This document shows, one piece after another, positions 1 through 19,093 of a DNA stretch of 64,000 nucleotides; positions within the stretch are counted from its first letter, which is position 1; each line of letters begins with the position of its first letter. The stretch is from Thauera carbonicopians (GTDB taxonomy: Bacteria; Pseudomonadota; Gammaproteobacteria; Burkholderiales; Rhodocyclaceae), in contig NZ_JANUXN010000001.1 in assembly GCF_025699485.1 (NCBI RefSeq), forward strand, positions 310,001-374,000, in the 5' to 3' direction. The notes under the pieces are model-generated. The model had not been told where the DNA came from and searched no databases. It worked only from the letters and a program-made list of their open reading frames with translations. Position numbers and translations under genes: made by a program.

Positions 1-1
1 C

Positions 2-1455: not shown

Positions 1456-1613
1456 GGTGTTTTTTCCACTGCACTAGAACGCGAACCTAAAAACCAGGTG
1501 CAAGCCCTTGTCCCGCAAGGCTTATCGCCACATTTAGAAGCCCAATAGAAGCGACCCCCGAATAACGGCCTTCCAGCCTTGTTGCGAAGGGGTTTGCGAA
1601 CCTTTAGAAGCAG

Positions 1614-1643: not shown

Positions 1644-1675
1644 GGAATGAACACCTTCCACCCATTGTGCGACGC

Positions 1676-2721: not shown

Positions 2722-2765
2722 TCCACCAGCCGGCCCTTCGGGGCTGGCCCCTTGAGACCCCCACC

Positions 2766-3850: not shown

Positions 3851-3864
3851 GTTCGCAAGTTCAG

Positions 3865-3894
3865 ACTTGCCAAAAAAGACAACGCCTCTACCTT
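3865..3894 (+). promoter_or_regulatory. Element promoter box copy 2
   Basis: The 18-base box ACTTGCCA-AAAAA-GACAA lies at 3865-3882; TACCTT at 3889-3894 is the -10-like hexamer at 16-base spacing. The left side also forms an inverted repeat GCAAGT (3855-3860) / ACTTGC (3865-3870). Predicted transcription start is near 3901. Confidence 0.65.
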
Positions 3895-3922
3895 GGTCAT
3901 ACCACTGACCAAGGTATTTTTT
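3889..3922 (+). terminator. Intrinsic terminator overlapping a promoter -10
   Basis: Perfect 11-bp arms TACCTTGGTCA (3889-3899) and TGACCAAGGTA (3906-3916) with a 6-base loop are followed by six T residues (3917-3922), directly before the ATG at 3924. It should end read-through transcripts from the 1.7-3.8 kb operon. The left arm overlaps the -10 of the next promoter, so a transcript initiated at about 3901 would lack that arm and escape termination. Confidence 0.8.
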
Positions 3923-3923
3923 C

Positions 3924-4679
3924 ATGAGCGAACTACCCCCGTCCGACTATGGACGTGCCCGCTGGGCCCATATCAGTCTTGCTGGCCGTGTGCTGGACTT
4001 TTACGGTCGCCATTGCTTGGGCGCACCCAAACCCGAACAGATCCCCGGCGACAACGACGCCGTCAAGGCACTGCTAGCCGAGCGCTTTCATGCGCTTCCC
4101 GTTGAGCGCAAGCCCGCCAAGTTCTCTGACGGGTTCGGCAAGGGCGCGAAGTGGAACACGCAGGTGCGCTACTTCGAGCACCGCCTGGTTGGGTACGTCA
4201 TGCCGATCGTGACCGCGCTGCTGTGTACGGTCCTGGTGGGTTCGGCCGGTCTGGTCCAGAAGACGTTTGCGGGTGCGGAGAAGTGGAATAACCAGCGCAA
4301 GGCCGAGAACGCGGCCGAAGAAGCGCGGGAGTACGCCGCCAAGCGCGAAGGCTTGAAGAAGGAGTGGGCGGCCGAGGTGGCCGGTTATTCCGCCCAGAAG
4401 TGCCTGGACGAAGTTTCGGATCTGCGCGTGCGGGATACGGACGAGAAGCGCGACCGCTACGCCGTCCTGCAGTCCGGTTGCGTCGACAAGACCCAAGCCA
4501 TCGTCGATATCGGCAAGTCGTGGTCGATCTCGCAGTGCGCGGATTTCGCGATCGAAGGCAACAAACAGATCAACGAACAGAAGGGCCAGCAAACCTGGGT
4601 GGACAGCCTGGTGTTCCAGCAGGGGTGCCTGTCGGTTCATGACCAGCAGGCGCTTCTCAAACTCGTCAACCCCAAGTAA
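3924..4679 (+). CDS. Single-pass membrane protein of conjugation operon
   Basis: A 251-aa protein with a basic cytoplasmic N-terminus (about 88 residues), one transmembrane helix at about 89-111 (YVMPIVTALLCTVLVGSAGL) and a charged coiled-coil-like stretch (about 118-155, KAENAAEEAREYAAKREGLKK). The C-terminal domain contains four cysteines (CLDEV, GCVDK, CADF, GCLS) likely to form disulfides in the periplasm. There is no strong ribosome-binding site because the six-T tract precedes the ATG. It is 8 bases upstream of the large coupling-type ATPase, so a partner role in the transfer channel is plausible. No family recognised. Confidence 0.55.
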   Translation: MSELPPSDYGRARWAHISLAGRVLDFYGRHCLGAPKPEQIPGDNDAVKALLAERFHALPVERKPAKFSDGFGKGAKWNTQVRYFEHRLVGYVMPIVTALLCTVLVGSAGLVQKTFAGAEKWNNQRKAENAAEEAREYAAKREGLKKEWAAEVAGYSAQKCLDEVSDLRVRDTDEKRDRYAVLQSGCVDKTQAIVDIGKSWSISQCADFAIEGNKQINEQKGQQTWVDSLVFQQGCLSVHDQQALLKLVNPK

Positions 4680-4687
4680 GGCCACCC

Positions 4688-7678
4688 ATGAAACTGTCTG
4701 ACTACCTCTCTCTTTACACCGTGGCCAACCTGTTCACCCAGGTGGCCGAACGTGTGTCCGCCCTGGTCCATCGGCGTCCCTACAACCCGGTCGAGGCCAA
4801 CGCCCGAGGCTGGGTCTATGCCCGTGCCCAGGAGTCATTCGACTACCTGACGCCCACCAGCGACATGGTCAACCGTGCGCCGCCCAAGGAAGGCGAACCC
4901 TTGATGTACGTCGAGCCAAAAGATCATGCCGAACTGGCACGGCTGGGTGCGACCGAACGGAATGGCAAGTGGTACATGCCTGCGAAGATCAGCAACGAGG
5001 ACCGTTGGGTGTTCGTGAACTGGTTTGCTCGCGCCACCCCCGACCTGGCCACCAACGCTCTGGATAACGCATTCACGGTCGATGGGCGAAGCACCAACGG
5101 CTACCAGGAACCCAGCGATATTTACGAAGGCAGCGACAGTTCTGCCACCGGCATTGTCATGGGTGTGCTCGCCGTGTTGCCCGCCGCCATGTTCGTTGTC
5201 TACCAGATCCCCTGGTTGGGGCCGCTGGTTGCGCTGGGCTTGGGCCTGCCCTTGATGGCGCTACACGCTTACACCATTTACCAGGCCGAAGACGCCTTGA
5301 CCTTGTTCAAGGTGCTGGCGCTATCCCTGGGACTTCCGCTGTTGGGGGGCGCGTTCTCCGGGTCGCAGTTCACGCCACAAGGCGCGATCTTGCCGATCGG
5401 GGTGCTGTCCATCCTGGCCTTCCTGCTGGCCTTCATCGGATCGGGTGCGACTACCGGCAAGACCGAAACGCCACTGGTCACCAAGTTCAACCGCTTCCTC
5501 CACGCCATGGGCATGGTCTTCGTGTTGGTGGCGGTCAACTTTGCCTTGTCCTTGTTGCCGTCGTCGCTGGACGCGTTCAAGACGCTGGGTCTGTTCCTGC
5601 CCGCGTGCGCGTATCCCTTCTACTACATGAAGAGCAACGAGCGGGCACGCACGGCCACCTTGCTCCTGCAAAGCCTGTACAAGGCTGGTCCCACCCATGG
5701 CGGTGGTTCGGATACGGGCAAGTTGGCACCCGCACGCCTTGAACAGATCCGCGAAGCGGCGCGCGACACCACGCCCATCATTCCGCTGGCCATCGCCCAG
5801 GGCGTCACCGGCAAGATGGATCTGCCCAGTGCGCCCGACGAAGGCCAGGTCATGGGTCTGTCCATGTTGGACTTCTCCATGCACCTGATGGTCTGGGGCA
5901 GGAGCGGTAAGGGTAAGACTTCATCCTTCCTTCGCCCCGTCGCCCTGCGCATGAAAATGTTGCCAGAGCAGATCGGCGCCATCCTGTCGGATGGCAAGGG
6001 CTCGATGGTGGAAGACATGCGTGACTTCCTCGATATCGTGATCGAGCCAGGGCTCAAGTTCGCCCCGTTCCAAGGCATGGATCCGGAAACGGTGGCCGAG
6101 GCCTTCAACGAAGCCACGGACGACGGGATCAAGGGCGAAGCGATCTGGACAGACGGTGCCGACAACTTCCACCTGTTCGCCCTGACCATCCTCCATGCCC
6201 TGGTGGAGCACGAGAAGGCGGGCAAGGTGGAGAAGGACCTGCAGGTGAAGTCCTACGAACTCCAGATCGACTACCTGTTGTGCCAGCAGGAAGAGAACCG
6301 CCGCTTGAAGTTGGACAACCGGCTGGTGGAAGAACAACTGCGCTCGATCGAGACCGCAGCCGACAGTAGCAAGAAGTTCATCGCTTCCACCCGCCAGTTC
6401 AAGTGGACGCCAGCGTGCTACTCCACCATCGCCAATATCCTGGCCACGCCGCAAATCATGCGCGGTGGGTTGGGGCGCCCCAACCAGGACGCACTCGATC
6501 TGTTCCTGTTCCTGGGCGCACGGCCCATGGAACTGCCCGGACAGGAGCCCGCCGAGTTCGAGGCCGAGAAGAAGAAGTACGACGAGCGCAAGTTGCTGGA
6601 ACCCACCACGATCCACCCGGCATTCCTGGAGCAGGGCCGTGTGTTGGCGCGTGCCGTGGATTACTTCACTCGCACCTGGCCCAACACCGACGACAAGCAG
6701 CGCTCGTCCTTCATGATCAATGTCAATCGCGACATTCTGTCCTTCCTGAAATCGGACAAGTTGCGCGGCGGCATGATCGACGGCGTTGACCACGGCGAGA
6801 CCGCCTGGGCCGATACCGAAGAAGGCGTTGACGTATTGCGCGTCCTGTATGGCGAGTGGTTGGGGATCAACCTGCCCACGACCCAGTTCAAGAAGAGCGG
6901 CAAGATCATCGCCAAACTGGTCAAGACCAAGATCTTCAAGGCGATCAAGATCCGCAGCGAGAAGTACGGTTCTGACTGGGCCAAGGCCACGGGCCAATGC
7001 TCGGTCATGGACATGGTCGACGAATGCCAGTTCATGGTCTCACCCCTGGAAGCCGATCTGACTTCGATGGCGCGCTCCATGGGCCTGTTCTTCGTCTACG
7101 CCACGCAGAAGATCGAAGGCCTGGTCAAGTTGATGAAGAGCGAAGAGGCCACGATCAACTTCCTGGAAGACTTCGCGTCGCAGGTCGCTTTCGACACGTC
7201 CGCAGCCACGCTGGAGTATCTGAAGCAGCGGGCAGGCGAGGCCAAGAGGCTGATGGTGCAAGCGCCACCGCAAGCCATCATGGACGTGAAGCGCGCCATC
7301 CTGACGCAAGAGAACACGATCTACCACGACCCCAACCACGCGGGCGCCAAGATGTTGCGCGACCTCGATCGCCGCGGTGGTGCCCGCATGCAGGTGGTGG
7401 TGGAAGGCATGACGCCGTATCGCGGTCTGACCCGTCGTGTTCCGCTGTCCGAGCAGCGCGACCAGACCTATATCCCCGTCCACATGAGCGGCACGCTGGA
7501 AGTGGGGCCGATCCTCGAAACCTGGCAGATGACCGACAAGTTGTCGGTGCGTGGTTCAGTCCTGTGCATGTTGAACCGTGCGGGTCATGCCCGGATCGAC
7601 TTCGCCACTGTCGAGTCCATGAGCGTCCAGCATGTGAAAGACACCCTAGCCGCACACCGCAAATCCCTTTCCCCCTGA
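4688..7678 (+). CDS. Large VirD4/TraG-type coupling ATPase with polytopic membrane domain
   Basis: This 996-aa protein has a Walker A motif GRSGKGKT at residues 404-411 and a Walker B DE pair at 778-779 in MVDECQFMV, followed by an ATQK segment, the hallmark order of type IV coupling proteins (VirD4/TraG/DotL group). Unlike typical members with two N-terminal helices it has about six hydrophobic helices between residues 155 and 315. Residues about 73-105 (VEPKDHAELARLGATERNGKWYMPA) resemble a DUF5710 domain. A large insertion separates the Walker motifs. It probably hexamerises at the inner membrane and powers substrate transfer, but it is a second coupling-type ATPase beside the one at 9560, so its substrate may be different. 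Family assignment firm; specific role inferred. Confidence 0.75.
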   Translation: MKLSDYLSLYTVANLFTQVAERVSALVHRRPYNPVEANARGWVYARAQESFDYLTPTSDMVNRAPPKEGEPLMYVEPKDHAELARLGATERNGKWYMPAKISNEDRWVFVNWFARATPDLATNALDNAFTVDGRSTNGYQEPSDIYEGSDSSATGIVMGVLAVLPAAMFVVYQIPWLGPLVALGLGLPLMALHAYTIYQAEDALTLFKVLALSLGLPLLGGAFSGSQFTPQGAILPIGVLSILAFLLAFIGSGATTGKTETPLVTKFNRFLHAMGMVFVLVAVNFALSLLPSSLDAFKTLGLFLPACAYPFYYMKSNERARTATLLLQSLYKAGPTHGGGSDTGKLAPARLEQIREAARDTTPIIPLAIAQGVTGKMDLPSAPDEGQVMGLSMLDFSMHLMVWGRSGKGKTSSFLRPVALRMKMLPEQIGAILSDGKGSMVEDMRDFLDIVIEPGLKFAPFQGMDPETVAEAFNEATDDGIKGEAIWTDGADNFHLFALTILHALVEHEKAGKVEKDLQVKSYELQIDYLLCQQEENRRLKLDNRLVEEQLRSIETAADSSKKFIASTRQFKWTPACYSTIANILATPQIMRGGLGRPNQDALDLFLFLGARPMELPGQEPAEFEAEKKKYDERKLLEPTTIHPAFLEQGRVLARAVDYFTRTWPNTDDKQRSSFMINVNRDILSFLKSDKLRGGMIDGVDHGETAWADTEEGVDVLRVLYGEWLGINLPTTQFKKSGKIIAKLVKTKIFKAIKIRSEKYGSDWAKATGQCSVMDMVDECQFMVSPLEADLTSMARSMGLFFVYATQKIEGLVKLMKSEEATINFLEDFASQVAFDTSAATLEYLKQRAGEAKRLMVQAPPQAIMDVKRAILTQENTIYHDPNHAGAKMLRDLDRRGGARMQVVVEGMTPYRGLTRRVPLSEQRDQTYIPVHMSGTLEVGPILETWQMTDKLSVRGSVLCMLNRAGHARIDFATVESMSVQHVKDTLAAHRKSLSP

Positions 7679-7690
7679 TCCGGAGTTCGC

Positions 7691-8671
7691 ATGTCCACCT
7701 ATATCGACAACCACAACAAGCAAGAACACCTGGATCGGGCGTACCGCAAGTACGAACCCCAGTACAACGCCGCCTTTGCGTCAGATCCCAGCCCGGCCCA
7801 TCGCAAGTACGACGCGATGGCTCCGCTGGACGATCCGCAGTGGAAGCGTCTGGAAGCCTATCGGGGCAACGACAAGGACGCCTATCACGCGCACCGTGAC
7901 CACCCCGGCGATCCGCTGGCCGTACCCACCGCCAAGGAGGCCGCCATGTGGGAGGCCAACCAGGCCGACCACTGGCGCGTGGAGCGCGAACCAGGCTATG
8001 CCGATCATGCCATGAGCCACAACAAGTGGCTGGCCATGTCGCCCGAGCAACGCCACTCCGATCGTGCCGCCGCCTTTTTCGACCATGTCGAAGCCCAGCA
8101 TGGTGCGGGCTATGACCAGTACGCCACCAAGGCCGGCAACAACGCTGTCACCAAGGACGCCTACCTCAACAACATGGCTGTGGTGGAGTACGAAAAGATG
8201 GCGGCGCGCAGCCAACAGCAACAGCAGGCACCCAAGCAAGAAGCCGCCCAACAGTCAGCTCCGAAGCAGGCCACGCCGCAGCAAGAGGCCAAGCCCACAC
8301 GCTTGAACAGCGCCGCGTTCCAGGAAGCACCCAATCAGGAGCAAGCCGCGCCCGCCGCTGAACAGCAGGCGGAGGTAGCCCAGGAGTCGAAGAAGTCGCG
8401 AATGTCGCTGGCGGACTTCCAGGGCAGCACGTCCGAGTACGTCGCACAACGTCGTCCGGAAATCGTCGCCAAGTCGGACGACGAGATCAAGCAGACCAAG
8501 CAGGAAGCCGCAGCCGAACACCGGAAGTTGGAACTGGGCGAAGTCCAGAATCAGGCGGCCAAGGTCGATGGCTACAACCGCGTGCAATCCAGCCTGGACG
8601 AAGTGCGCACCGCCCGCAGGCAGGCAAGCCTGGCAGAGGCACAAGACCGTAATCGAGGACAAGACAGATGA
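7691..8671 (+). CDS. Gln-rich soluble protein of conjugation operon
   Basis: A 326-aa hydrophilic protein. Residues 1-170 are rich in Tyr, His and Asp (YRKYEPQYNAAF, HAHRDHPGD) and may fold as a helical domain. Residues 170-260 are a low-complexity Gln/Ala/Pro/Glu linker. Two similar short segments, TRLNSAAFQ and SRMSLADFQ, sit in the linker and could be repeated binding motifs. The last 60 residues look like a coiled coil. The stop overlaps the start of the L,D-transpeptidase gene. No signal peptide, membrane helix or catalytic motif is visible and I do not recognise it. Its place after the large ATPase suggests a cytoplasmic transfer factor or secreted substrate. Confidence 0.55.
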   Translation: MSTYIDNHNKQEHLDRAYRKYEPQYNAAFASDPSPAHRKYDAMAPLDDPQWKRLEAYRGNDKDAYHAHRDHPGDPLAVPTAKEAAMWEANQADHWRVEREPGYADHAMSHNKWLAMSPEQRHSDRAAAFFDHVEAQHGAGYDQYATKAGNNAVTKDAYLNNMAVVEYEKMAARSQQQQQAPKQEAAQQSAPKQATPQQEAKPTRLNSAAFQEAPNQEQAAPAAEQQAEVAQESKKSRMSLADFQGSTSEYVAQRRPEIVAKSDDEIKQTKQEAAAEHRKLELGEVQNQAAKVDGYNRVQSSLDEVRTARRQASLAEAQDRNRGQDR

Positions 8672-9510
8672 AGACAGGAGCGAGGGCCCTAATCTTCCTA
8701 ACCACTCTACTGACGATCACCACCGCCAACGCCAAGATCCCCAAGATCGACGGCATGAGCCGCGTGACCCACGCCCATGCCGAGCAGGCCTTGGCTTGTT
8801 CCAAGAAACTTGGGCGCAACCCCGACCTGTTGATCGTGGCCGATATGCGCCTGGGATCCGGCGACAAGCGCTTGTGGGCGATTGACACCCGGACCGGCAA
8901 AACCATTGTGAACACCGAGGTCGCGCATGGCCGCGGCTCCGACCCCGGCAGCAAGGGCAGGGCGCAGGTGTTCTCGAACACGCCCGGTTCGCTCATGACT
9001 TCGGTGGGCCTGTACTCCATTGCCGAAGCCTACAAGGGCAAGGATGGCCATATCACTACCCGCCGAAGGCTCGACGGCCTCATGCCCGGGTTCAACGACA
9101 ACGCCCGCGAGCGTGCCGTTGTCCTGCACCCCGCGCGCTACGTGCGCGATGGCTGGGCCGGACATTCCGAAGGCTGTCCGGCTGTGTCGTATGCCGTGAT
9201 GGAGCAGTTGAACGATCGCGGCCTGGATAACGCAGTTCTCTGGATCGAGGGCGACGTGGAAGGCCTGTCCGAAGCCGTAGCCACCTGTTCCGGTACGAAG
9301 ATCCGCAAGCGGTTCCGTTGGCCCTGGCAGAAGAAACTGCCCGTCCAGCCGGAATGGTCGCCGGAGTCTACCGAAGCGTTCAATCCGTATTTCCAGGTGG
9401 TGTACGACAACTTCTGTCCGTCACCGGAACTGACCGCCTCGCTGTCGTGGTGGGCGGGCCAGCCCATCTACGCCGAGGCGGCGGGCCAGCGCTGGACCTT
9501 GCGGTTCTGA
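8668..9510 (+). CDS. Secreted murein L,D-transpeptidase (YkuD_2-like)
   Basis: A 280-aa protein with a signal peptide (residues 1-22, ending TTANA before KIPK). The catalytic segment GHSEGCPAVSY places His166 and Cys170 in the HxxxGC pattern of L,D-transpeptidase catalytic-domain (PF13645-type) proteins. Upstream, residues about 50-130 carry the strands typical of that family (DLLIVADMRLGSGDKRLWAID, VAHGRGSDPG). The family cleaves or cross-links meso-diaminopimelate bonds in the periplasm. In a conjugation operon it could locally remodel peptidoglycan for the transfer channel, the job more often done by a lytic transglycosylase. It is coupled to the preceding gene by ATGA and followed by a terminator. 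Confidence 0.75.
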   Translation: MKTGARALIFLTTLLTITTANAKIPKIDGMSRVTHAHAEQALACSKKLGRNPDLLIVADMRLGSGDKRLWAIDTRTGKTIVNTEVAHGRGSDPGSKGRAQVFSNTPGSLMTSVGLYSIAEAYKGKDGHITTRRRLDGLMPGFNDNARERAVVLHPARYVRDGWAGHSEGCPAVSYAVMEQLNDRGLDNAVLWIEGDVEGLSEAVATCSGTKIRKRFRWPWQKKLPVQPEWSPESTEAFNPYFQVVYDNFCPSPELTASLSWWAGQPIYAEAAGQRWTLRF

Positions 9511-9518
9511 TCACAAAG

Positions 9519-9542
9519 CCGCGCCTTTACGGGCGCGGTTTT
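9519..9542 (+). terminator. Intrinsic terminator after the L,D-transpeptidase gene
   Basis: CCGCGCC (9519-9525), a 6-base loop and GGCGCGG (9532-9538) are followed by TTTT (9539-9542). It separates the 3.9-9.5 kb operon from the TraD-like gene, which begins 17 bases later. Confidence 0.8.
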
Positions 9543-9559
9543 CCTTCCATCCTGCCACC

Positions 9560-11497
9560 ATGAAGCAAGCGATCTACGACTCCTTTGGCGCCCCCGGCAA
9601 GCACGTCGACTCCAGTATTCGTGTGCGTCGCTGGGACCTGGGGCTTGCCTATGGTGCGTTGGGATCGGCCCTGGGGTTTTTCCCGATTGCCCGATGGGGC
9701 ATGGGGTGGCATGACACGTTCCGTGCGCTCTCACTCGATCCTGCGTTCTACTCCCGGATCGACAACCTGCAGTGGGCCCAAGACTGGACCACGCTTGCCA
9801 TGGCCACCACCACAGGAGTGATTGCTGGCGGTGGACTTGCGTATGCCGGCCTCATCCCGCGATCGAACCAATGGGTGGTCAGTGGCGTGCGCTTGCTGGA
9901 AGGCAAGGACGCCAGGAAGGAAGCCCGTCGCCGCTCGCCGTCCATGAAGGATCGCCTCACCGATCCGTTCGGCTTACCGCTTCACCCCGATCTGTGGTTG
10001 TCGAAGAAAACGCTGTCGCGCCACATGCTCATCTATGGATCGGTGGGATCGGGCAAGACCCAGATCTTGCTGGCCATGCTGCAACCGCTGATGGCCAACC
10101 AGAAGGCCAAGTTGTTCCTGTACGACGTAAAGGGCGACTTCACCGCGAAGTTTCCGCAAGCCAAAATTTGTTCGCCATTCGACACTCGTTCGATGACCTG
10201 GTGGGTCGCCCGCGACGTTAGAACCAGCACGCAAGCCGCCGCCTTTGCCGACAGCCTCATTCCCGAGGACAGCGGATCCGGAAAATTCTGGACGCAGGCC
10301 GCCAGGCAACTCTTGTTGGGCGTCGTGCGCTCGCTGCAGAACGAGAACCCTGAGCAATGGACATGGACGGATCTGGCGCAGCGCGTGTCCATGCGCGCTG
10401 CAGAAATGGCGCCGATCCTCGACAAGAACTACCGCAAAGCCTACGGCTTGATTTCCAACACCGAAGGCCAGACCGCATTCAACGTGATCGCTACCTTGAA
10501 CGGCTACACCAAAGTGATCGACGACCTGGCCCGTGCCTGGCCGAACTACGACACCGCGCTCAATGGGGCCGGTACCAAGGACAAGATCGAAGGCGTGCCC
10601 CTTGCCTACGTGGGAAAGCCGGTCAAGCCGATCAAGGCGAACTACCCGAAGGACGAGGACTGGAAGCGGGCGAGTAAGCAGTACCAGGAACAAAACAAGG
10701 CACGCCAAGCCTGGCACGCCGACTTCACGAAACGCCGTCATGTCTTCTCCGTCACCGACTGGGCGGCCGACAACTACAAGGGCCCCACCAAGATCATCGT
10801 GCAGTCCGGCCCGGACTCTGGACTCACGTCGGCGTATATCGCCGCCCTGATCAATGTCGCTGTGCCCTCGATCGTCTCCCCGCAACTGCCCGACAATGAA
10901 GGCGGGCGCTTCCTGGGCTTCTACTTCGACGAAATGTCCAGTATCGGAAAAATCGACTTCGCCCCGTTGGTCGACAAGGGCCGATCCAAAGGGGTTGTGG
11001 TGGTGGCTGGCATTCAAGACTTGGCGCAGTTGAAGGAACTCTATGGCGATAACCAGGTGAAGGCCCTGTCAGGCATGGTAGGAACTCACATCGTTTGTCA
11101 GATCCAGATGGGCGAGACCCGCGAAGAACTATCCAAACTGCTGGGCACGCAGAAGGTCGCACGGTTGGACAATCACCCCGACGCCCGGTTGAACAACGAA
11201 GGGCAACCGGTGGTCTACCCGGCGCAACTCACCGACATGCTTGGTTTCCGGAAAACCAGGAAGGCCCCGTTCTTTGAGATCCGCGCCCTGGTCCAGCAGG
11301 GCGGGGACTTGCTCTTGCTCAACTTCCCGGGCCAACCCTTGAAGGACTGGCGCAAGGGCCAGGAACCTGCGGCCTGGACCACGCGAGCAGCCGGTTTCGA
11401 GAAGCCGCGCGAGGATCTGACGGGCGAGGCGGTGCTTGCCGGCAAGGAGATGGGCGAGCAACTGGATCAAGGCGAACTGGATCGCTTGTTCCGCTGA
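9560..11497 (+). CDS. traD: TraD/TrwB-type conjugative coupling protein
   Basis: This 645-aa protein has two N-terminal membrane segments (residues about 27-50 and 76-100), a Walker A GSVGSGKT at 160-167, and a Walker B FDEMSS at 456-461 followed by a VVAGIQD segment. The intervening sequence (SPFDTRSMTWWVARDV.. SLIPED.. FWTQAAR) is the signature of TraD/TrwB coupling proteins that bring a MobF relaxosome to the type IV secretion channel. A family C-terminal region after residue 560 is present and the length is normal. It starts just after a terminator, with ATG 9560 the first in-frame start. It is followed by the ankyrin gene and the relaxase, consistent with a trwB-trwC-like pair. Function is well supported. 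Confidence 0.88.
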   Translation: MKQAIYDSFGAPGKHVDSSIRVRRWDLGLAYGALGSALGFFPIARWGMGWHDTFRALSLDPAFYSRIDNLQWAQDWTTLAMATTTGVIAGGGLAYAGLIPRSNQWVVSGVRLLEGKDARKEARRRSPSMKDRLTDPFGLPLHPDLWLSKKTLSRHMLIYGSVGSGKTQILLAMLQPLMANQKAKLFLYDVKGDFTAKFPQAKICSPFDTRSMTWWVARDVRTSTQAAAFADSLIPEDSGSGKFWTQAARQLLLGVVRSLQNENPEQWTWTDLAQRVSMRAAEMAPILDKNYRKAYGLISNTEGQTAFNVIATLNGYTKVIDDLARAWPNYDTALNGAGTKDKIEGVPLAYVGKPVKPIKANYPKDEDWKRASKQYQEQNKARQAWHADFTKRRHVFSVTDWAADNYKGPTKIIVQSGPDSGLTSAYIAALINVAVPSIVSPQLPDNEGGRFLGFYFDEMSSIGKIDFAPLVDKGRSKGVVVVAGIQDLAQLKELYGDNQVKALSGMVGTHIVCQIQMGETREELSKLLGTQKVARLDNHPDARLNNEGQPVVYPAQLTDMLGFRKTRKAPFFEIRALVQQGGDLLLLNFPGQPLKDWRKGQEPAAWTTRAAGFEKPREDLTGEAVLAGKEMGEQLDQGELDRLFR

Positions 11498-11523
11498 TTT
11501 TGCGGGCAAGTTCGTAGCGCCAA

Positions 11524-11553
11524 ACTTGCCAGAAACGACAATGGCACAAGAAT
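11524..11553 (+). promoter_or_regulatory. Element promoter box copy 3
   Basis: ACTTGCCA-GAAAC-GACAA occupies 11524-11541 and AAGAAT (11548-11553) is the -10-like hexamer at the same 16-base spacing. The box is the right half of an inverted repeat GGCAAGTT (11505-11512) / AACTTGCC (11523-11530). A GGAGG ribosome site precedes the ATG at 11579. Confidence 0.65.
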
Positions 11554-11578
11554 GGTCCTCACCACCTGGAGGGCCGTC

Positions 11579-11755
11579 ATGCGATCACTATTGAACTGGT
11601 TTTTCGAGATTGTGCTGGTGCTGGGCTACGCCATCTTGGCGGTGCTGTTTGCACTGAACGACAAAGTATTCATGGCCTTGTGTTCGGCCCTGTTCTCGGG
11701 TGCGTTCGGCTACCTCTTCTTTCAAGTCCGCTTCTGTCGCAGGCGGTGGTCATGA
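11579..11755 (+). CDS. 58-aa two-helix membrane protein
   Basis: The start at 11579 follows a good ribosome site (GGAGG, 6 bases away) and the promoter box; an in-frame ATG at 11552 lies inside the -10 and is rejected. The peptide MRSLLNWFFEIVLVLGYAIL.. contains two hydrophobic helices (about 5-24 and 28-48) separated by an ALNDK turn and ends in a basic tail RFCRRRWS. It is coupled to the ankyrin gene by an ATGA overlap. No family recognised; small membrane proteins in this position are sometimes exclusion or stability factors, but that is speculation. Confidence 0.6.
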   Translation: MRSLLNWFFEIVLVLGYAILAVLFALNDKVFMALCSALFSGAFGYLFFQVRFCRRRWS

Positions 11756-12561
11756 GCCTGTTCAATGCCCACGGCCATTTCGTACCGCTAGCCCAGTTCC
11801 GCGCGGCCCTGGCCAAGGGTGCGAACCCCAACCAGTTGTGGATCTCGTCCCGCGGATCGGCGGACTACACCATTCGCGTGCCCGTGATCGTGGCCGCCCA
11901 ATCCCAGGATGGCTTGCCCTTTCTCTTGGCCTTACTGGATGACCCGCGAACCGATATCGAAGCGCGCAACCTGGAAGGTCGTTCGGCCTTGATGATGGCC
12001 GCCTGTCATGGCCTTGAACCGCACGCCGCACTGTTGTTGTCCCGTGGCGCCAATCTCCACGCCAAGGACACCTACGGACGCACGGCACTCCACCATGCCA
12101 CCCAATGCGAAAACGAGGCCATGTTGCGTCTTCTGCTGAACGCTGGCGCGAACCCCAACGATACGAACCAGGCAGGACGGGCCGCACTGCATGAAGTGAT
12201 GATGGCGTACACCCGGTTCCCCCAGCCCTTGGAAACGAAGATACGGCTTTTGCTGGACTGCGGTGCGCATGTCGATCATCGAGGCGCCATGGGAATGACG
12301 CCCTTGTATACCGCTGCTGGTAGCGGGTGGTCGAGGATAGTGGCCATGTTGCTTTCCGCAGGCGCCAATCCACAACTACGCGCAGACTGTGGGCTTACCG
12401 CCATGGAACTGGTACTGAAACGCTTGGCTACGTTTCCAGGCGTTCACGAACCCGGTTTGACCGCGACCTTGGCTGTATTGGAAGCCCATGCGCGCCGCGG
12501 TGCCTTGGCTTGCCTGGCCCAGATGGAACACCGCATGGGTTCGCTTCAGCGCGCCCTGTGA
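11752..12561 (+). CDS. Ankyrin-repeat protein
   Basis: A 269-aa soluble protein with at least four ankyrin repeats. Recognisable units run from about residue 65 to 215, each with the G-R-x-A-L / LL-x-x-G-A-N pattern (EGRSALMMAACHG, YGRTALHHATQCENEAMLRL, AGRAALHEVM, GMTPLYTAAGSG). The start is the ATG overlapping the stop of the 58-aa gene. Ankyrin arrays bind proteins. Between a coupling protein and a relaxase this one may bind the relaxosome or be an effector-like passenger; no catalytic domain is visible. The repeats are certain, the function is not. Confidence 0.8.
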   Translation: MSLFNAHGHFVPLAQFRAALAKGANPNQLWISSRGSADYTIRVPVIVAAQSQDGLPFLLALLDDPRTDIEARNLEGRSALMMAACHGLEPHAALLLSRGANLHAKDTYGRTALHHATQCENEAMLRLLLNAGANPNDTNQAGRAALHEVMMAYTRFPQPLETKIRLLLDCGAHVDHRGAMGMTPLYTAAGSGWSRIVAMLLSAGANPQLRADCGLTAMELVLKRLATFPGVHEPGLTATLAVLEAHARRGALACLAQMEHRMGSLQRAL

Positions 12562-12590
12562 GTTGCCAGCCACAACAAGTCCTGGATACT
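12561..12590 (+). promoter_or_regulatory. Element promoter box copy 5 (degenerate)
   Basis: AGTTGCCA-GCCAC-AACAA (12561-12578) matches 11 of the 13 fixed box positions, and GATACT (12585-12590) follows at the same 16-base spacing. Only 5 bases separate the -10-like hexamer from the relaxase ATG at 12596, so an RNA from here would have almost no leader. Confidence 0.45.
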
Positions 12591-12595
12591 GGAAC

Positions 12596-15379
12596 ATGCT
12601 CAAACTCACGGCCCTGACCGCTACCGGACACAACGCTCGCGGCGACAACGTCATCGAGTACCTGACCGAGACCCAGTCACTACGAGACTTGGCCGGCTAC
12701 TACGTGGGTGCGGAAGGCCTGGAAGAGGACACCATGCGCTGGCGTGGGCATGGCGCGGCCATGCTCAATCTGTCAGGCACACCCGACAAGGCGCAAATGA
12801 TCGAGTTGGCGGCGGGCTATTCCCCCGACGGCTTGAAGACGAAGTTGTGCCAGAACGCCGGCAAGGGGCCGGAGAAAGTACTCAAGATTGACCCCCAGAC
12901 ACTGCAACCCCGATTGCTGGCCAACGGGCACCCGGAGTTCGTCTGGAAGGGGGGCCACCAGGTGGGCTACGACTGCGTGTTCAACGCGCCCAAATCCGTA
13001 TCGCTGCTGTTGGCTATGGCCGACCCCGACGAGCGCGGCAAGATCCTGGCCGCGCACCGCCGCGCCGTCGACCAGGGGCTGGAGTACATGGAAAGCAAGG
13101 TCGAAACCCGGTTGGGCAAGGGTGGTAAGGACGTGGTGGGCGTCGATGGATTGGTGATTACCTCCTGCGACCATCTCGCCAACAGGAATTTGGAACCTCA
13201 CCTGCACACCCATAACTTGCTGTTCGGCGTGGCCTTGCGCCCCGATGGCAAGTGGGGTGGGTGGGAGAGTTCGGAAATGTACCGCCACCAGAAAGCCGCC
13301 GACACCATCTACATGGCGCACCTGGCCCAGAACTTGCGAGATCTGGGCTACGGGATCGAACAGACCGCCGAACTGGATCCCGATCAGCAGGACACGGGCG
13401 TGCGTGCATGGAAAGTCGCTGGGATCGACGACGCCACCATTGCGGCGTTCTCCACGCGCAAGCAGGAAATCGTGGACGCCATGACCGAAGGCCTGACCCA
13501 CCAGGAAGCGTGGGCACAGACCCGTGCGCACAAGGACGAGCCCAGCCCGGAAGAACTGTTCTCAACCTGGGAGCGCGTCATCCCAGCCATGGGGCAGAGC
13601 AACGACCTGGCGCAGTTGAAGGCCCTTCCCGATATCCAGGCGCCATTCCGTTCAGACGAACAGATCCTTGAAGCCTTGCACGCGACCACCGCGATCGTGG
13701 CCGAGAAGGACATTCTGTGGGAGGTCAGCCGGGCGCGTGCAGGTCAAGGCCCCGACGCCCTCAAGGCCGACGTGGAGCGCTTGAAGGAAAGCATGGTGGC
13801 CATCGCCCCGGAACGGCAAGCCGCGATCGACCAGGGCAATCACGTCTCGCGTCGCTACTCCGAAACCCGCTTCGCGTGGTCCAAGATCGTGGACTGGGAG
13901 CAGGAAGTCCAAGCCAGGGCCGACGCCCGCAAGGACGACACCGCCGTCCGCGTGCCCGATCGGATCCTGGACAAGGTGATCAAGGACTACCAGCAGGAGA
14001 AGGGTTTCACCCTGTCCGACGAGCAACTCGAGGCAGTCCACCACTTGTGTGCCGACAGCGGCGGACACGCTGTCATGGCGGGCGTGGCCGGTGCCGGTAA
14101 AACGACGGTGGCCGATCTGTACAAGCGTTGCTTTGAGGCCAATGGCCAGGAGTTGATCGGTGCGTGCGTTTCACGTAAGGCTGCGGGCAAGTTGAAGGAA
14201 GAGAGCGGCATGGAGGCCATGTCCGTCACCAAGTTGCTCATGAAGTTGGACAACGGCCACAAGCTCACGAAAGACATTCCAGGACTCACCGCCAAGTCAG
14301 TGGTGGTGCTGGACGAAGCCGGCATGGTCGATACCGAAGCGGTGCGCCGCCTCATGCGCCACGTCGATGACGCAGGCGCCAAACTGATCCTGCAAGGGGA
14401 CATGAAGCAACTGCAGGCCATCGGCGCTGGCGCCGGCATGGCCCTGGTGTCCGAGCGCTTGGGCCAGACGGAACTCTCCGAGATCCGCCGCCAGAAGAAC
14501 GCGGACGACCGTGATATTGCCATTGCGTTCTACGATCGCGACGCCCAGGGACGGGTCATCCTGGACAACCGCGCCGAACCGAAATCGCGCGCCGAAGTCG
14601 TGGCCAAGGGCGCAACGCTGTGGAAGAAGTTGGAAGCGCGCGGCGCGATAGACGCCTACAACACCCGGGGCGAAGCCGCCGACGCCTTGGTGCGCGACTG
14701 GATGGACAGTCCGCACGCCATCGACAACCGTCTGGTGCTGGTCCACACCCACGAAGACAGCGCCTTGCTCACTGGCAAGTTCCGCGATGGGCTACGTGAC
14801 CGCAGCGTCCTGACCGGCGAGGATCACACCTTCCAGGCCAGGCGCGACAAGCGCTTGTACGACATGACGGTGGCTGTGGGCGATCGGGTGCGGATCACCA
14901 AGAACGACAGCCAGCGCGGCGTGGATAACGGCGACATGTGCGTGGTTGAAAGCGTCTCGCGTACCGACACCGGATCCCTGGCCTTGGGCCTGCGAGTGGA
15001 AGGCAAGGCAGGGCAACCCAGTTTCCTGCTGGCCGTGGACACGGGCGAATGGAACCACTTGCAGGCCGGCTACTGCCGCACCGTTCACGACGCACAGGGG
15101 CAGGGCAAGCCCGCCGTCTTCCATTTCGCCAACGCCTCGATGGTCGACAACCAATCAGCGCTGGTCGCGTTCACGCGCCTCACGTCCGACCGCTACCGCA
15201 TGTATGGGGCGGACGTGGAACTGGAGCAGGTCAAGAACCGACTGGGCGCGGATCGCTTGAAGCAGAACGCGATCCAGGAAGGCTTCTGGGCCGAGAACGC
15301 CAAGCCGCGGCGCACGACCCTGGAACAGGACTACGACCGCGTGCTGCAACAGCAACCGACGCGCGGGCTTGAGCGCTAG
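12596..15379 (+). CDS. mobF: MobF-class relaxase-helicase (TrwC/TraI type)
   Basis: This 927-aa protein nicks oriT, stays bound to the transferred strand and unwinds DNA. The N-terminal TrwC relaxase domain (about 1-300) shows candidate catalytic tyrosines Y35/Y36 (AGYYVG) and the metal site H193 plus H204-T-H206 (EPHLHTH), with an additional H202 where Gln is usual. The helicase part has Walker A GVAGAGKT (496-503) and a Walker B with D573-E574 (VVLDEAGMV). Length matches TrwC (about 966 aa). A longer frame begins at 12488 inside the ankyrin gene, but the conserved MLKLTALT start at 12596 is clear. It ends convergently, overlapping a GIY-YIG gene by 4 bases. Confidence 0.93.
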   Translation: MLKLTALTATGHNARGDNVIEYLTETQSLRDLAGYYVGAEGLEEDTMRWRGHGAAMLNLSGTPDKAQMIELAAGYSPDGLKTKLCQNAGKGPEKVLKIDPQTLQPRLLANGHPEFVWKGGHQVGYDCVFNAPKSVSLLLAMADPDERGKILAAHRRAVDQGLEYMESKVETRLGKGGKDVVGVDGLVITSCDHLANRNLEPHLHTHNLLFGVALRPDGKWGGWESSEMYRHQKAADTIYMAHLAQNLRDLGYGIEQTAELDPDQQDTGVRAWKVAGIDDATIAAFSTRKQEIVDAMTEGLTHQEAWAQTRAHKDEPSPEELFSTWERVIPAMGQSNDLAQLKALPDIQAPFRSDEQILEALHATTAIVAEKDILWEVSRARAGQGPDALKADVERLKESMVAIAPERQAAIDQGNHVSRRYSETRFAWSKIVDWEQEVQARADARKDDTAVRVPDRILDKVIKDYQQEKGFTLSDEQLEAVHHLCADSGGHAVMAGVAGAGKTTVADLYKRCFEANGQELIGACVSRKAAGKLKEESGMEAMSVTKLLMKLDNGHKLTKDIPGLTAKSVVVLDEAGMVDTEAVRRLMRHVDDAGAKLILQGDMKQLQAIGAGAGMALVSERLGQTELSEIRRQKNADDRDIAIAFYDRDAQGRVILDNRAEPKSRAEVVAKGATLWKKLEARGAIDAYNTRGEAADALVRDWMDSPHAIDNRLVLVHTHEDSALLTGKFRDGLRDRSVLTGEDHTFQARRDKRLYDMTVAVGDRVRITKNDSQRGVDNGDMCVVESVSRTDTGSLALGLRVEGKAGQPSFLLAVDTGEWNHLQAGYCRTVHDAQGQGKPAVFHFANASMVDNQSALVAFTRLTSDRYRMYGADVELEQVKNRLGADRLKQNAIQEGFWAENAKPRRTTLEQDYDRVLQQQPTRGLER

Positions 15380-15744
15380 GCCTTCGGCCAGCCCACGAGC
15401 AACCAGGTTCGCCACGCCTCAAGTCGGCGCAAGGTTCCCATCTTCCGGCCCAGGTTCACTCGCACGTTGGGCGGGAGGACATAGACCTGATAACCCTTCA
15501 AGTGGGCCACCCAGCGCCAGACGAACTCACGCTGTTCGGCGTCCATGTAGGTGCCCGTGATCGTTTCCAGCCGGATCATGCGGAAATCCCGCAGCCAGCC
15601 ACCCGAGGGCGCGGCGTGCTGCTGACCACGCTGTTTCATGTTCACGGTCTGGCCCACGTAGACGGCGCGTTCGTTGTCGAACACCAGCGCATACAAGTGG
15701 CGGGTCTTGCGCTGGAAGTGGCTCTTGCGGACCCACTGGCTCAT
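15376..15744 (-). CDS. GIY-YIG nuclease-domain protein
   Basis: A 122-aa protein with the GIY-YIG order: HLYALVFDNERAVYVGQT supplies the two strand motifs (Y..YVG), followed by an arginine in KQRGQQH, a glutamate in AEQREFVW and an asparagine in PPNVRVN. These are the residues expected for a minimal single-domain GIY-YIG endonuclease. The ATG at 15744 overlaps the stop of the preceding gene (ATGA), so it is translated with the DUF5710-HNH gene. Role is unknown; possibilities include processing of transferred DNA or defence/anti-competition. Confidence 0.7.
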   Translation of the reverse strand: MSQWVRKSHFQRKTRHLYALVFDNERAVYVGQTVNMKQRGQQHAAPSGGWLRDFRMIRLETITGTYMDAEQREFVWRWVAHLKGYQVYVLPPNVRVNLGRKMGTLRRLEAWRTWLLVGWPKA

Positions 15745-16424
15745 GGGCGTGGCGGCAGTTCGACACCCTGGCGCTTGCGCTCTTCCGGGGTGGGTAGTTT
15801 CACCGCCACCCCGATCGCTTCGATGATCGAAAGATCCAACGACCACGCCTGCTGGGAGCGCTGCGACCACACGGCGTAGGCCTGCCGCAAATGCTGTTCC
15901 AACTCCCATTCGGTCCAGCCGTTGACCTTCAAGAGGTGCGCGCGAGCCGCAGGTTCCTGGCCCGTGGCCACCGATCGACCGAAATGGATGGCCTGGTGGC
16001 ACGCAGGACAAATGCAGGTCAAGCGCTTCAACCGCTGAACCCCGTCCGCGAACTCAAACCGTTCGTGCGCTTCCAGGAAAACCTGTGCCGCAGGGTCGGC
16101 CTTGGCCGCGCAGACTTCGCATTGAAAGCCCGCGCGGGCCTTCACGCCGTCGGCGATCCGTTTCCAATCGTCTGACGACACCGAACTGCGCACATTGGTG
16201 TGCCAGCAGGTGGACGGGATCAAATCGACCGACAAGCGCGGGGTGGAACCCCACGTCCGGTCTTCTCCCGGAAACACCTGGGGCAGGCGCTTCCAGTGTT
16301 CGGCCATCCGCTGTTCGGTGGTCGGGTCAGGGGCGTACCAGAGTTTGTGGTCGTGGTCGTAGCGGGCGCCCAGGCCCTTGGCCTGTTCCTTGTCCGCGAA
16401 GGGCAGTTGGAAGTAAATCGTCAT
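15741..16424 (-). CDS. DUF5710-HNH nuclease-like protein
   Basis: A 227-aa protein. Residues 3-45 (IYFQLPFADKEQAKGLGARY..KLWYAP) form a DUF5710 domain, a module found in plasmid primases and relaxase-associated proteins. Residues 100-150 contain an HNH-type zinc site: C102-x2-C105, EAH120E, and C139-x2-C142-H with H147. Together they suggest a DNA-binding HNH endonuclease of the conjugation machinery. Transcription probably starts at the promoter box 20-37 bases upstream, giving an almost leaderless mRNA. It overlaps the GIY-YIG gene downstream. Confidence 0.7.
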   Translation of the reverse strand: MTIYFQLPFADKEQAKGLGARYDHDHKLWYAPDPTTEQRMAEHWKRLPQVFPGEDRTWGSTPRLSVDLIPSTCWHTNVRSSVSSDDWKRIADGVKARAGFQCEVCAAKADPAAQVFLEAHERFEFADGVQRLKRLTCICPACHQAIHFGRSVATGQEPAARAHLLKVNGWTEWELEQHLRQAYAVWSQRSQQAWSLDLSIIEAIGVAVKLPTPEERKRQGVELPPRP

Positions 16425-16431
16425 CCGGTCC

Positions 16432-16461
16432 AGGATGAGGCGATTGTCGTTCCTGGCAAGT
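16432..16461 (-). promoter_or_regulatory. Element promoter box copy 4
   Basis: On the minus strand ACTTGCCA-GGAAC-GACAA occupies 16461 down to 16444, and CATCCT (16437-16432) lies at the fixed 16-base spacing. The gene's ATG at 16424 begins 7 bases after the hexamer. Confidence 0.65.
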
Positions 16462-16504
16462 GTGTCAAACCATCATCACGAACAACTAGATCCCAGAAAC
16501 AAAA

Positions 16505-16526
16505 CACCCCCGGCGAACCGGGGGTG
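16505..16526 (-). terminator. Intrinsic terminator downstream of the CoiA-like gene
   Basis: CACCCCCGG / CCGGGGGTG arms (9 bp) enclose a four-base loop. On the minus strand the stem is followed by GTTTTGTTT, so it ends transcripts of the gene at 16576-18075 before the promoter of the next minus-strand gene. Confidence 0.8.
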
Positions 16527-16575
16527 CGGGCAGCATAGAGCCCAGCGGCGTGGGCGAGGGACGCACGTCGCCCCT

Positions 16576-18075
16576 CTAGGGTGGCGAGGCGGCGTCTGGT
16601 GTCAAGGCGGCACGGCGACGACCGACGTAAGACGCCGGATTTTCACGAAGCGCCGCCACGGCTTCGGGGAACAGGAACTCGATCAATGACTGATAACGAT
16701 GGGTTGGCACGAAGGCTGGGACGGCGTCGATCCAGGCCTGGTGGTATTCGCGGACCTTGTTCGACCATGCCCGCCGATCGCCACGCTCCATGAGCAAGGC
16801 GCCCCGATCGTAGAACCCCATCATGGCGGTAAAGACCCACAGCGCCGGCTTGTGCGAGTTGAACAAGGTGTTGGCCAACTCAATGAGGTAGCGCTGTTCG
16901 CAGCCCACGGGCCGGCCTAGTTTTGCCGAGTACGACGCCTGCAGGAGGGGGAATAGCGGATCGAAACGCACATGCTCGGGCAAGTCGAAACCCCGCAACT
17001 TGAACCTGGCCCGGACGACCGACCAGAAGTCATTGTTATTCACATGGTTGGGGTAGCCACGCATGAAGTCTTCCATGAGTGTGCGCAACGACGGGTCGGA
17101 TTGGTAGTCCACCGTGGGCGGCAGGGGTTCGCGCGGAAGGGGTTCGATCACAGTCCGCCTGGGCGTCAGTGCCTCCACCTGGGCGTCCAGCGGCGCACGG
17201 GCCGCGTCGTAATCGAAGAAATAGGCGCGGGGAACGCGCCCATCCTTCACGTCGAACCGCAACTGGTCAAAGAACACGACCTGCCGATGGTGTCGGTGTT
17301 CGATGGTGGATCCTTCCAGATAAGGCTCTTGCCAGGCGCATTCCATCGCGAAGCGTCCTTCGCGGACAGAAAGTGCCAACGTGTCCTCATTGACCAGGAA
17401 GGCGTTGCGATTGTTGTTGAAGAAAATGTCGTCTTCGGCTTGTCGGAAGGCGCCAATGGCCAGATCGCGGAAGAACCAGATCAGATTGCCCACGTTCTTG
17501 CGGTAGAAGGCCTGGCGCTGTGCCACCACTTCCACGAAGGTGGTGGACAACTGGACTTCCAGCGCAATGCGCTCGGTGCCGTGGATGGTCTGCACATCGG
17601 GCTTTCGCCAGCGCACCCCATCCAGTCCAAACCAGGTGGCTTCTGTCTGGGTGTTGGTGAAGGTTGGATCCGCGGCCAGGCTCGCGACGATCAGCGCCTT
17701 ATAGGCTCGGTGCGCTTCGCTTTCCTTGGTGTTGGCGTAGACCATCGCGCAGATGGCGTCGTGGGTCATGCCCTTGGTGCCGCCACACTCTTCACTGCGG
17801 AACCGGTGCTTGAGGTAGAAGCGATCCTCCCGTTCCTTGTCCATGGGCTTGGACCGCAACACCATGGGCTTGCGACAGCGCTGGCATACGTACCGGACCT
17901 TGTCTTCCAACAGGTCATGTTCCAGGGCAAGGCGCTTGTTCTGGATCAGGTCGCCGTAGTCGCCTTCTCCGATGAACTGGTGGAGCGTCAGGCTCTGCCC
18001 CGTGGACAGGTCCAGGACGCCATGGAAGGGCTGGTGAGCCAGGGCAATGCGGCGAGGGGAGGGTGTGTCTTCCAT
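16576..18075 (-). CDS. CoiA/DUF6035-like PD-(D/E)XK nuclease candidate
   Basis: A 499-aa protein from the ATG at 18075 (the frame extends further but without conserved sequence). Residues 60-100 hold a zinc site C64-x2-C67...H90...C97. Residues 150-180 read RWRKPDVQ..ERIALEVQLST, an Asp and Glu-x-Gln pair (D160, E173, Q175) in the arrangement of the PD-(D/E)XK nuclease fold seen in competence protein CoiA and related DUF6035 proteins. The C-terminal 300 residues are mostly alpha/beta with no motif I recognise. It is transcribed divergently from a HEPN gene 83 bases away. A role in incoming-DNA processing or defence is possible; activity unproven. Confidence 0.6.
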   Translation of the reverse strand: MEDTPSPRRIALAHQPFHGVLDLSTGQSLTLHQFIGEGDYGDLIQNKRLALEHDLLEDKVRYVCQRCRKPMVLRSKPMDKEREDRFYLKHRFRSEECGGTKGMTHDAICAMVYANTKESEAHRAYKALIVASLAADPTFTNTQTEATWFGLDGVRWRKPDVQTIHGTERIALEVQLSTTFVEVVAQRQAFYRKNVGNLIWFFRDLAIGAFRQAEDDIFFNNNRNAFLVNEDTLALSVREGRFAMECAWQEPYLEGSTIEHRHHRQVVFFDQLRFDVKDGRVPRAYFFDYDAARAPLDAQVEALTPRRTVIEPLPREPLPPTVDYQSDPSLRTLMEDFMRGYPNHVNNNDFWSVVRARFKLRGFDLPEHVRFDPLFPLLQASYSAKLGRPVGCEQRYLIELANTLFNSHKPALWVFTAMMGFYDRGALLMERGDRRAWSNKVREYHQAWIDAVPAFVPTHRYQSLIEFLFPEAVAALRENPASYVGRRRAALTPDAASPP

Positions 18076-18158
18076 GTCGTCTACCCATCCTACGGTCTGG
18101 CTTCTCACCCGTTGAGACGGTCGTGTGCCCGGTCCACAATCGGGGCAAAGGGGAACCC

Positions 18159-18695
18159 ATGCCATCCAAAGCCAGCCTGACCTTCGAGCACGCCATTCAA
18201 GACGCCCTCGATCTGGTCAACCACTTCGACCGTCTCAACTCCCAGCCACCCCCGCCCGAGAACGGAGTCCTCAAACGGGCCAGCCTGGTCATGGCGCTTG
18301 CGGCACTCGAAACCTATTTCGAGGATCGGTTAGTGGAAGCGGTGGACGCCGTGGCGGGTGGAGCAGGGCACCTGTCCGATTTCATGCGGGACAGCCTGGC
18401 CAACGACCTCAAATATTTCCATACGCCCAGCACCGATCGAGTACGGCCCCTGTTTCAGAAGTACCTGGGCCTCGATATCACCGACGGCTGGCGTTGGAAC
18501 ATGATGGAGCCTGCAGCGGCTCGAACCGAGTTGAACCGCCTGGCCAAAAAGCGAGGCGATATCGCTCACCGATCGGGCCGACCCGCCAATGGGGTGCCGG
18601 CCAAGCACGCCGTGTCTAGGGACGACCTGCGCCGGCATATTCATTTCATCCGGCAGGTGGTCCTGGCCACCGACGCGGTGTTGGCCAAGCCCTAA
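18159..18695 (+). CDS. HEPN-domain (RiboL-PSP type) ribonuclease-like protein
   Basis: A 178-aa all-helical protein. The motif KKRGDIAHR supplies R132-x4-H137, the catalytic pattern of HEPN RNases, followed by a C-terminal helix RHIHFIRQVVLATD. The N-terminal half (ASLVMALAALETYFEDRLVE) is the usual helix of RiboL-PSP-HEPN proteins. The ATG at 18159 has a purine-rich AAAGGGGAA upstream. HEPN proteins of this group are often toxin or defence RNases cleaving RNA. No paired nucleotidyltransferase antitoxin is present; the neighbour is the divergent nuclease-like gene. Confidence 0.72.
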   Translation: MPSKASLTFEHAIQDALDLVNHFDRLNSQPPPPENGVLKRASLVMALAALETYFEDRLVEAVDAVAGGAGHLSDFMRDSLANDLKYFHTPSTDRVRPLFQKYLGLDITDGWRWNMMEPAAARTELNRLAKKRGDIAHRSGRPANGVPAKHAVSRDDLRRHIHFIRQVVLATDAVLAKP

Positions 18696-19009
18696 TCGGG
18701 CCGTCCAACACACCCCGCTATCGATCAAACCCACGCCGTTATCTGGGCGATAGTGGCGTATGTTCACCCGCTGGGTTTTGCCAAAACTTTAGCTAAAGCC
18801 GCCTTGGCTAAACCCGTGGCTAAAGGAACTTCCACCAAGAGTTCCGCATGGGAAATGACGCTGTTTAGCCACTTCCAGGGTCACTTGTCTCACGGTGTTT
18901 CAGGCTGTTTCTTTTGTCTTAGCCATTCTTTTGCCACAGCGGCATTGAACTGTGCTAGATTCTGTTTGCAACGCCCCAAAGCGTTGATCTACAAAAGAAA
19001 AACGACACG
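18696..19009. other. Gene-poor element end with repeated GGCTAAA sites
   Basis: About 314 bases without a convincing gene at the integrated end. GCTAAA-type hexamers occur at 18792, 18807 and 18819 (the first inside a 12-bp palindrome CTTTAGCTAAAG at 18787-18798), in inverse orientation at 18864-18870 (TTTAGCC) and 18919-18925 (TTAGCCA), and again at 19009-19014. Repeated short sites in both orientations next to an attachment site resemble arm-type integrase/excisionase binding sites. An 86-codon frame (18753-19013, GTG start) crosses the region but looks like chance. Confidence 0.45.
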
Positions 19010-19093
19010 CTAAAAATCGGCACGCGCATACTGCTTCATCATTGGCGTATGAGCAGCGATCTCGGCTTCGGTGAGCGGCGGTGTCTTTTGCAT
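19010..19093 (-). pseudogene. mutS: 5' fragment of mutS interrupted by the element
   Basis: From ATG 19093 the minus strand encodes MQKTPPLTEAEIAAHTPMMKQY, the characteristic start of DNA mismatch-repair protein MutS, whose HTPMMxQY segment is highly conserved and is normally followed by a LRxKAxHP stretch. Here the match ends at about 19,028; four non-homologous residues and a TAG stop in element sequence follow. Only about 22 of roughly 850-880 codons remain. The rest of mutS should lie beyond the element's left end, outside the window. The intact chromosomal map gene is 131 bases upstream on the same strand. MutS initiates methyl-directed mismatch repair, so loss would give a mutator phenotype. 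Confidence 0.8.

Follow-up and report, generated by a model that had tools for sequence, protein, structure and literature searches.

Insertion of genomic islands at one and the same sequence of mutS has been known in Burkholderia since 2008, when the site-specific mutS islands GI8c (B. pseudomallei MSHR305) and Bt-GI4 (B. thailandensis E264) were described with a 15-bp repeat, ACGCCGATGATGCAG (PMC2612704). As excerpted here, that report presents GI8c as a putative prophage and is silent on leader replacement, on a chimeric mutS that stays intact and on a recombinase family; the other reports compared below are likewise used in excerpt. SXT/R391 ICEs sit in the 5' end of prfC (PMC4542580, PMC3715440). 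SpyCI occupies mutL of S. pyogenes, where all tested strains but one were mutators, and in SpyCIM5 a cryptic promoter in an int pseudogene rescues mutL (PMC3430984). ICENmu of Neisseria (PMC7371117) adjoins mutS in a single N. sicca strain, where it lies between mutS and ftsX, and occupies another place in another species; the excerpted text does not describe it as being inside mutS. The P. fluorescens prophages between mutS and cinA (PMC2647930) adjoin mutS but, as described there, lie outside its 5' coding end, unlike the elements reported here.

The window analysed here (the whole 64-kb stretch C11:310001-374000 of the draft host genome G000, which comprises 4.52 Mb in 48 contigs) contains a mutS stub on its minus strand, extending from position 19093 to about 19029. 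Read from the sequence, the first native codons are followed by element DNA; the translation from 19093 gives MQKTPPLTEAEIAAHTPMMKQYARADF and then a stop, that is, a mutS start running into element sequence. Because the host reads QQY at this point, the stub residues KQY represent element sequence. The original prediction held that the insertion removes almost all of MutS and proposed extending the sequence to the left to find the remainder. The remainder is indeed found there, as part of a complete gene, and MutS is therefore not lost: a profile search of the whole genome gives one mutS1 match (TIGR01070, 1057 bits), on the same contig and strand as the stub and 75.7 kb to its left.

This chimeric mutS comprises 880 codons, and MutS domains I–V are all present (Pfam). 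Its N-terminus, MSLNNKGITKPDKEGQD, is wholly unlike the stub, and the protein is an ordinary MutS from HTPLMQQYIRIKQQHPD onward. A three-way alignment reveals that the start codon and approximately the first 21 codons of the host mutS come in frame from the element. Since a second ATG six codons upstream of the called start is also in frame, we leave the start position as two candidates. In the chimeric protein, the MutS_I domain starts at residue 19 and the crossover falls at residue 22.

The three aligned sites are the left junction (CATACGCCACTTATGCAGCAGTACATCC), the right junction (CATACGCCAATGATGAAGCAGTATGCG) and an empty site (CATACGCCGATGATGCAGCAGTACATCC). The last is provided by locus L011 of a sister species (G018), which carries an uninterrupted mutS (MQKTPPLTEAEIAAHTPMMQQYIRIKQQHPD...) that is about 96% identical on both sides. 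The switch between element and host falls within the second ATG, which corresponds to residue 22 of the chimeric protein and codon 19 of the native one. That L011 reads through confirms the break in the stub as a true junction, and with both junctions aligned to the empty site, the 5' end of mutS is the attachment site, as had been proposed. The 8-bp core reads ATGAAGCA in the element versus ATGCAGCA in this host, and the core-to-core length of the element is about 75.69 kb. No direct repeat of the element ends was found inside the 64-kb window, because the left end lies outside it. The two att cores and the empty site are as expected of a tyrosine-recombinase integrative element (Table 1). 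To judge from both junctions, precise excision would rebuild the native mutS, again as predicted. The 15-bp repeat of the Burkholderia islands (PMC2612704) is contained in the empty site of L011, CATACGCCGATGATGCAGCAG; the likeness concerns the target site.

Table 1. Features of the mutS-associated element and its junctions (window positions unless prefixed C11)
Feature	Position	Strand	Remarks
Right 19 kb of element	1..19031	.	Remaining 56.7 kb left of window, C11:253340-310000
426-aa protein	175..1455	-	No Pfam match; family in 5/10 elements
Small protein, weak DUF6290 match below cut-off	1616..2092	+	Possible relaxosome DNA-binding protein (inferred role)
996-aa ATPase, TraG/DotL-like C-terminal part	4688..7678	+	Family in 5/10 elements
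Type IV coupling protein, TrwB/TraD-like	9560..11497	+	Family in 5/10 elements
MobF relaxase/helicase	12488..15379	+	NCBIfam MobF 198.6 bits, cut-off 100; family in 7/10 elements
DUF6035/DUF7830 protein	16576..18165	-	
RiboL-PSP-HEPN protein	18063..18695	+	Last recognised gene before right end
Right-end short repeats TTCTTTTGCCA / TTTTGCCA	18776..19000	.	Common to int-mutS gap at left end
Right attachment core CATACGCCAATGATGAAGCAGTA	19029..19051	-	Alignment of junctions
8-bp core centre ATGAAGCA	19032-19039	-	Within right attachment core
Native mutS 5' stub	19029..19093	-	Codons 1-19 native, 20-22 (KQY) element-derived
mutS1 body	C11:250768-253410	-	Outside window
Left attachment core	C11:253337-253359		Outside window
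Recombinase gene P0001	C11:253441-255588		Divergent from mutS
UmuC gene (IMS domains)	C11:262929-264785		L198:429-2285, minus
Chaperone-usher fimbrial genes	C11:274559-278720		Usher and chaperone families in 4/10 elements

The first gene inside the left end encodes the recombinase, for which neither Pfam (Phage_integrase included) nor PHROG gives a match. Residues R439, K491, H609, R612, H634 and Y654 are invariant across seven aligned recombinase sequences; in an alignment of ten sequences, R612 is replaced by Lys in one member (G482). The complete R-K-H-R-H-Y set predicts a tyrosine recombinase. Homologues are 27–43% identical to the host recombinase, and among the seven that were scanned, three reach the Pfam cut-off for Phage_integrase (PF00589) and two that for the arm-binding domain. 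At the limits used, no relatives were found in plasmid, phage and IMG/VR data, and a PDB sequence search with the recombinase profile gave one weak match only, to a kinase. The gene that follows is excisionase- or regulator-like (PHROG 66, E 1e-7). With its one recombinase, followed by this gene and a restriction enzyme, the element is not a GInt island, for which a ginABCD operon with three integrases is described (PMC5385486).

The gap between the core and the int open reading frame is about 100–260 bp long and holds repeats shared with the far end of the element. The motif TTCTTTTGCCA and its variants occur in the int–mutS gap and again close to the right end, and TTTTGYCA is present seven times in the element: three copies fall within the first ∼ 200 bp, two within the final 300 bp. 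Among ten compared elements, shared end repeats are clear in three (G000, G433 and G450); four have just 1–4 shared 10-mers, a number within or near the shuffle range, and three have none. The shared terminal repeats are likely to be integrase arm sites. A promoter scan of the int–mutS gap returned no match on the mutS strand and one weak match on the int strand.

We searched for the recombinase in further genomes. The protein sequence had a match in two of 61 relatives and in three of 369 genomes of the class, the host's own genome being included in both counts. Searches with a profile gave 35 matches in 91 Stenotrophomonas genomes (E 0.001), 26 in 150 genomes of the host's own family (own included), 11 in 198 genomes of the Stenotrophomonas family (1e-12) and three in 398 genomes of the phylum (1e-12), all of the latter already known and again including our own. 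The strong set comprises 31 genomes: 20 of Stenotrophomonas, three of the host's own family (G000, G034 and G597) and eight more of the Stenotrophomonas family; for Stenotrophomonas, strong means 75 bits or more, a line drawn after the table had been seen. In all 31 genomes, which span two orders and represent, besides the host, about thirty bacterial species, the recombinase gene adjoins mutS and is divergent from it. Named records with this arrangement include S. maltophilia LMG 978 and IAM 12423, S. pavanii, S. geniculata and [Pseudomonas] hibiscicola.

Just under the 75-bit line are two matches away from mutS and three beside it. The former (L074 and L075; 44 and 38 bits) correspond to C-terminal parts of a different integrase; mutS is absent from their flank, and they were left out of the count. 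The latter (G498, G499 and G469; 38, 35.5 and 28 bits) are only fragments and stand outside the 31. A match in G327 (25 bits) has a flank without mutS. Weak matches of the Stenotrophomonas search were considered only where a locus had been extracted. As controls, weak generic integrases had mutS in the flank at none of five loci (L079–L083) and none of 25 loci (L087–L109, L112 and L113), the flanks being up to 1.5 kb long and shorter at contig ends. Six loci (L064, L070, L071, L073, L076 and L078) carry truncated, frameshifted or fragmentary recombinases adjoining mutS; these are probably elements decaying in place, with mutS still open as far as read.

At each of the 31 strong-match loci, an in-frame start codon precedes the core by 8–22 codons, and the mutS frame is open to the end of the fetched locus (223 codons or more). 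The integrase-bearing genomes have many different leaders, all of which extend up to a common HTP.MKQ point. For comparison, we picked 22 Stenotrophomonas genomes from the 56 without a recombinase match. In eight of these, mutS begins MSK(D/E)KSAE-HTPLMKQ, and in nine the leader is short and of the VTEKKPE type. In the other five (L114, L115, L116, L122 and L127) it is longer and of the element type, and the 1.5 kb upstream contain no recombinase. These five leaders are probable scars of lost elements. In L115 (G451), a ∼ 414-aa membrane protein, O-antigen-ligase-like by eye, is divergent to mutS at the expected recombinase position.

Native mutS stubs at the far end were sought in 28 genomes with a 132-nt query of native upstream and start sequence, which gave some match in 23. 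Such a stub is present in 14 integrase-bearing Stenotrophomonas genomes, and all 14 read to ATGAAGCA and then continue into element sequence. The matches cover 125 nt or more in eight of them and only 24–32 nt in six. In 13 of the 14, the stub lies on the same contig as int, and the implied element sizes are about 23–134 kb.

Some pairs of loci suggest that the leader travels with the element. L067–L069 and L203, the latter from another genus, share 86% identity in the leader, 83–84% in the recombinase and 82–85% in the mutS body; L060 and L068 are 98% identical in the mutS body but 49% in the leader and 37% in the recombinase. Across the matrix, from which L064 and L070 (truncated or frameshifted recombinases) were left out, leader similarity correlates with recombinase similarity with a partial rho of 0.34, a value reached in one of 999 permutations, and with mutS body similarity at 0.38. 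Because the correlation with the recombinase is no stronger than that with the body, the matrix test is not our main evidence, and co-transfer rests more on the clear pairs.

The recombinase family is found in 10 of 10 compared elements. Five large elements of 71–82 kb (G000, G433, G450, G470 and G482) share the families of the relaxase, the coupling protein and the 996-aa ATPase, as well as a VapE/DUF5906 protein, ArdC-like proteins and others, and this backbone spans two orders. A PDB search with the profile of the 996-aa ATPase gave a match to DotL. The prediction of MobF conjugation genes to the left of the junction is borne out by the relaxase and coupling protein, both of which are expected of an ICE. 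The description of the element as conjugative is supported in part, by the relaxase and coupling ATPases; a Pfam scan of 54 of the 78 called ORFs recognised no mating-channel (type IV secretion) genes such as VirB4, so that self-transfer is putative. Upstream of the transfer genes, a perfect 16-nt inverted repeat with an 11-nt loop (window 1292-1334) is a candidate oriT or terminator.

In the host element, a UmuD-like frame lies just upstream of the UmuC gene (by eye). The UmuC family occurs in four of the ten elements (the host's, G433, G470 and G482), and inspection by eye shows a UmuD-like neighbour in G470 and in G482 too. Further cargo consists of a type IIG restriction enzyme, an AAA_13 protein (PADLOC PDC-S06) and a type II restriction pair. 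Two SCPU pilin-like proteins occur only in the host element among the ten, and the fimbrial genes of the element are possibly used in cell contact.

We propose the following mechanism. The tyrosine recombinase of the left end would insert the element by recombination in the 8-bp core, at mutS codons 15–22 (the conserved HTPMMQQY motif), a target that lies in a highly conserved stretch comprising the first residues of MutS domain I. The left end carries a putative promoter region, a start codon and about 21 codons, the last four of which copy the motif. Because this end has its own start and a leader that ends in the same motif, only the variable tail and the upstream region change: integration swaps the mutS leader. 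On one side mutS is left complete but with a different start; on the other, the native upstream region is left with a stub of 19 native codons. The element would thus use a conserved gene as its site without costing the host its mismatch repair. That the frame is open in 31 of 31 genomes is consistent with selection for a MutS that works while the element is integrated, and mutS would then be transcribed from the element and its product function normally.

That mutS-targeting integrative elements keep mutS whole and re-start it from an element leader is in our judgement very probable. The draft state of the assembly could point to an artefact or a duplicated mutS fragment, but both junctions lie on one 520-kb contig, the arrangement is present in 30 other genomes (14 with far-end stubs), some of which consist of one contig (e.g., G509, G516, G470, G482 and G450, with the same anatomy), the stub matches the native mutS 5' end of the sister species and the genome has a single mutS1; an artefact or spare fragment is thus ruled out for all practical purposes. 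The reversible mutator switch of the original prediction, in which integration abolishes MutS and excision restores it, would be in keeping with the severing of the native upstream region and start from the gene and with the mutL precedent of S. pyogenes (PMC3430984). SpyCI is similar in that an integrase drives its insertion at the 5' end of a gene for mismatch repair, but the analogy fails at the key point, since mutS is complete in this genome and an in-frame leader with a start codon is present at 31 of 31 loci. With mutS open from the leader start, as far as read, in all 31 genomes, disruption would not be expected to give a mutator state, and we consider such a switch very unlikely.

It is somewhat less improbable, though still unlikely, that the element is an immobile relic and the leader swap an exapted scar. 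Degenerate recombinases and scar leaders without a recombinase do occur in Stenotrophomonas, and the scan of 54 of the 78 ORFs of the host element recognised no mating-channel gene; this genome, however, has int, the excisionase-like gene, both cores and the terminal repeats, all of them unbroken, and the site is empty in a closely related species. It is plausible that the element alters the amount of MutS, because the divergent int–mutS gap holds putative arm sites. Whether this region sets mutS output, such that mutation rate and the barrier to divergent recombination follow the state of the element, is a possibility that we hold as a minority view: mutS and int are divergent, the gap holds repeats common to the far end and the host element also carries umuDC, but the shared 10-mers are clear in just three of ten elements, few in four and absent in three. 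A broader version appears slightly less probable still. According to this speculation, the element clade may have taken over mutS transcription, and integrase binding in the int–mutS region may couple MutS dose to the life cycle of the element and, together with umuDC in some members, set mismatch repair and mutagenic polymerase, hence mutation rate and openness to divergent DNA.

SXT provides prfC with a new 5' end, and R391 carries umuDC-like genes. The strategy of a new 5' end of the target gene supplied by the element is shared by the mutS element described here. Both it and the SXT/R391 ICEs, as excerpted, are large and occupy the 5' end of a conserved gene; the mutS element differs in that its target is mutS rather than prfC, its relaxase is of the MobF type and no F-type transfer module was recognised among the ORFs scanned. 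In the literature searched, largely without subscription papers, we found no account of the leader exchange, the recombinase clade or the relaxase-bearing family, nor any report of Stenotrophomonas mutS elements. As far as this search reaches, the recombinase clade, the general leader exchange that keeps mutS intact, the distribution across the Stenotrophomonas family and the order of the host, and the relaxase-bearing backbone, which in some members comes with umuDC, are new.

Mismatch repair sets the mutation rate and blocks recombination between diverged DNA, and an element that has repeatedly captured the upstream region of mutS along with its first codons is therefore well placed to influence both. 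In this family, a single conserved gene has had its leader swapped naturally dozens of times, with which the question of whether mobile elements tune the mutation rate of their hosts becomes directly testable. In addition, genomes with mutS stubs beside such elements could be mis-scored as mutators, the complete gene being tens of kilobases away.

Elsewhere in the window, positions 19274-19616 and 53392-53734 are similar to each other (73% DNA identity), the first lying in a gene that we read by eye as methionine aminopeptidase.
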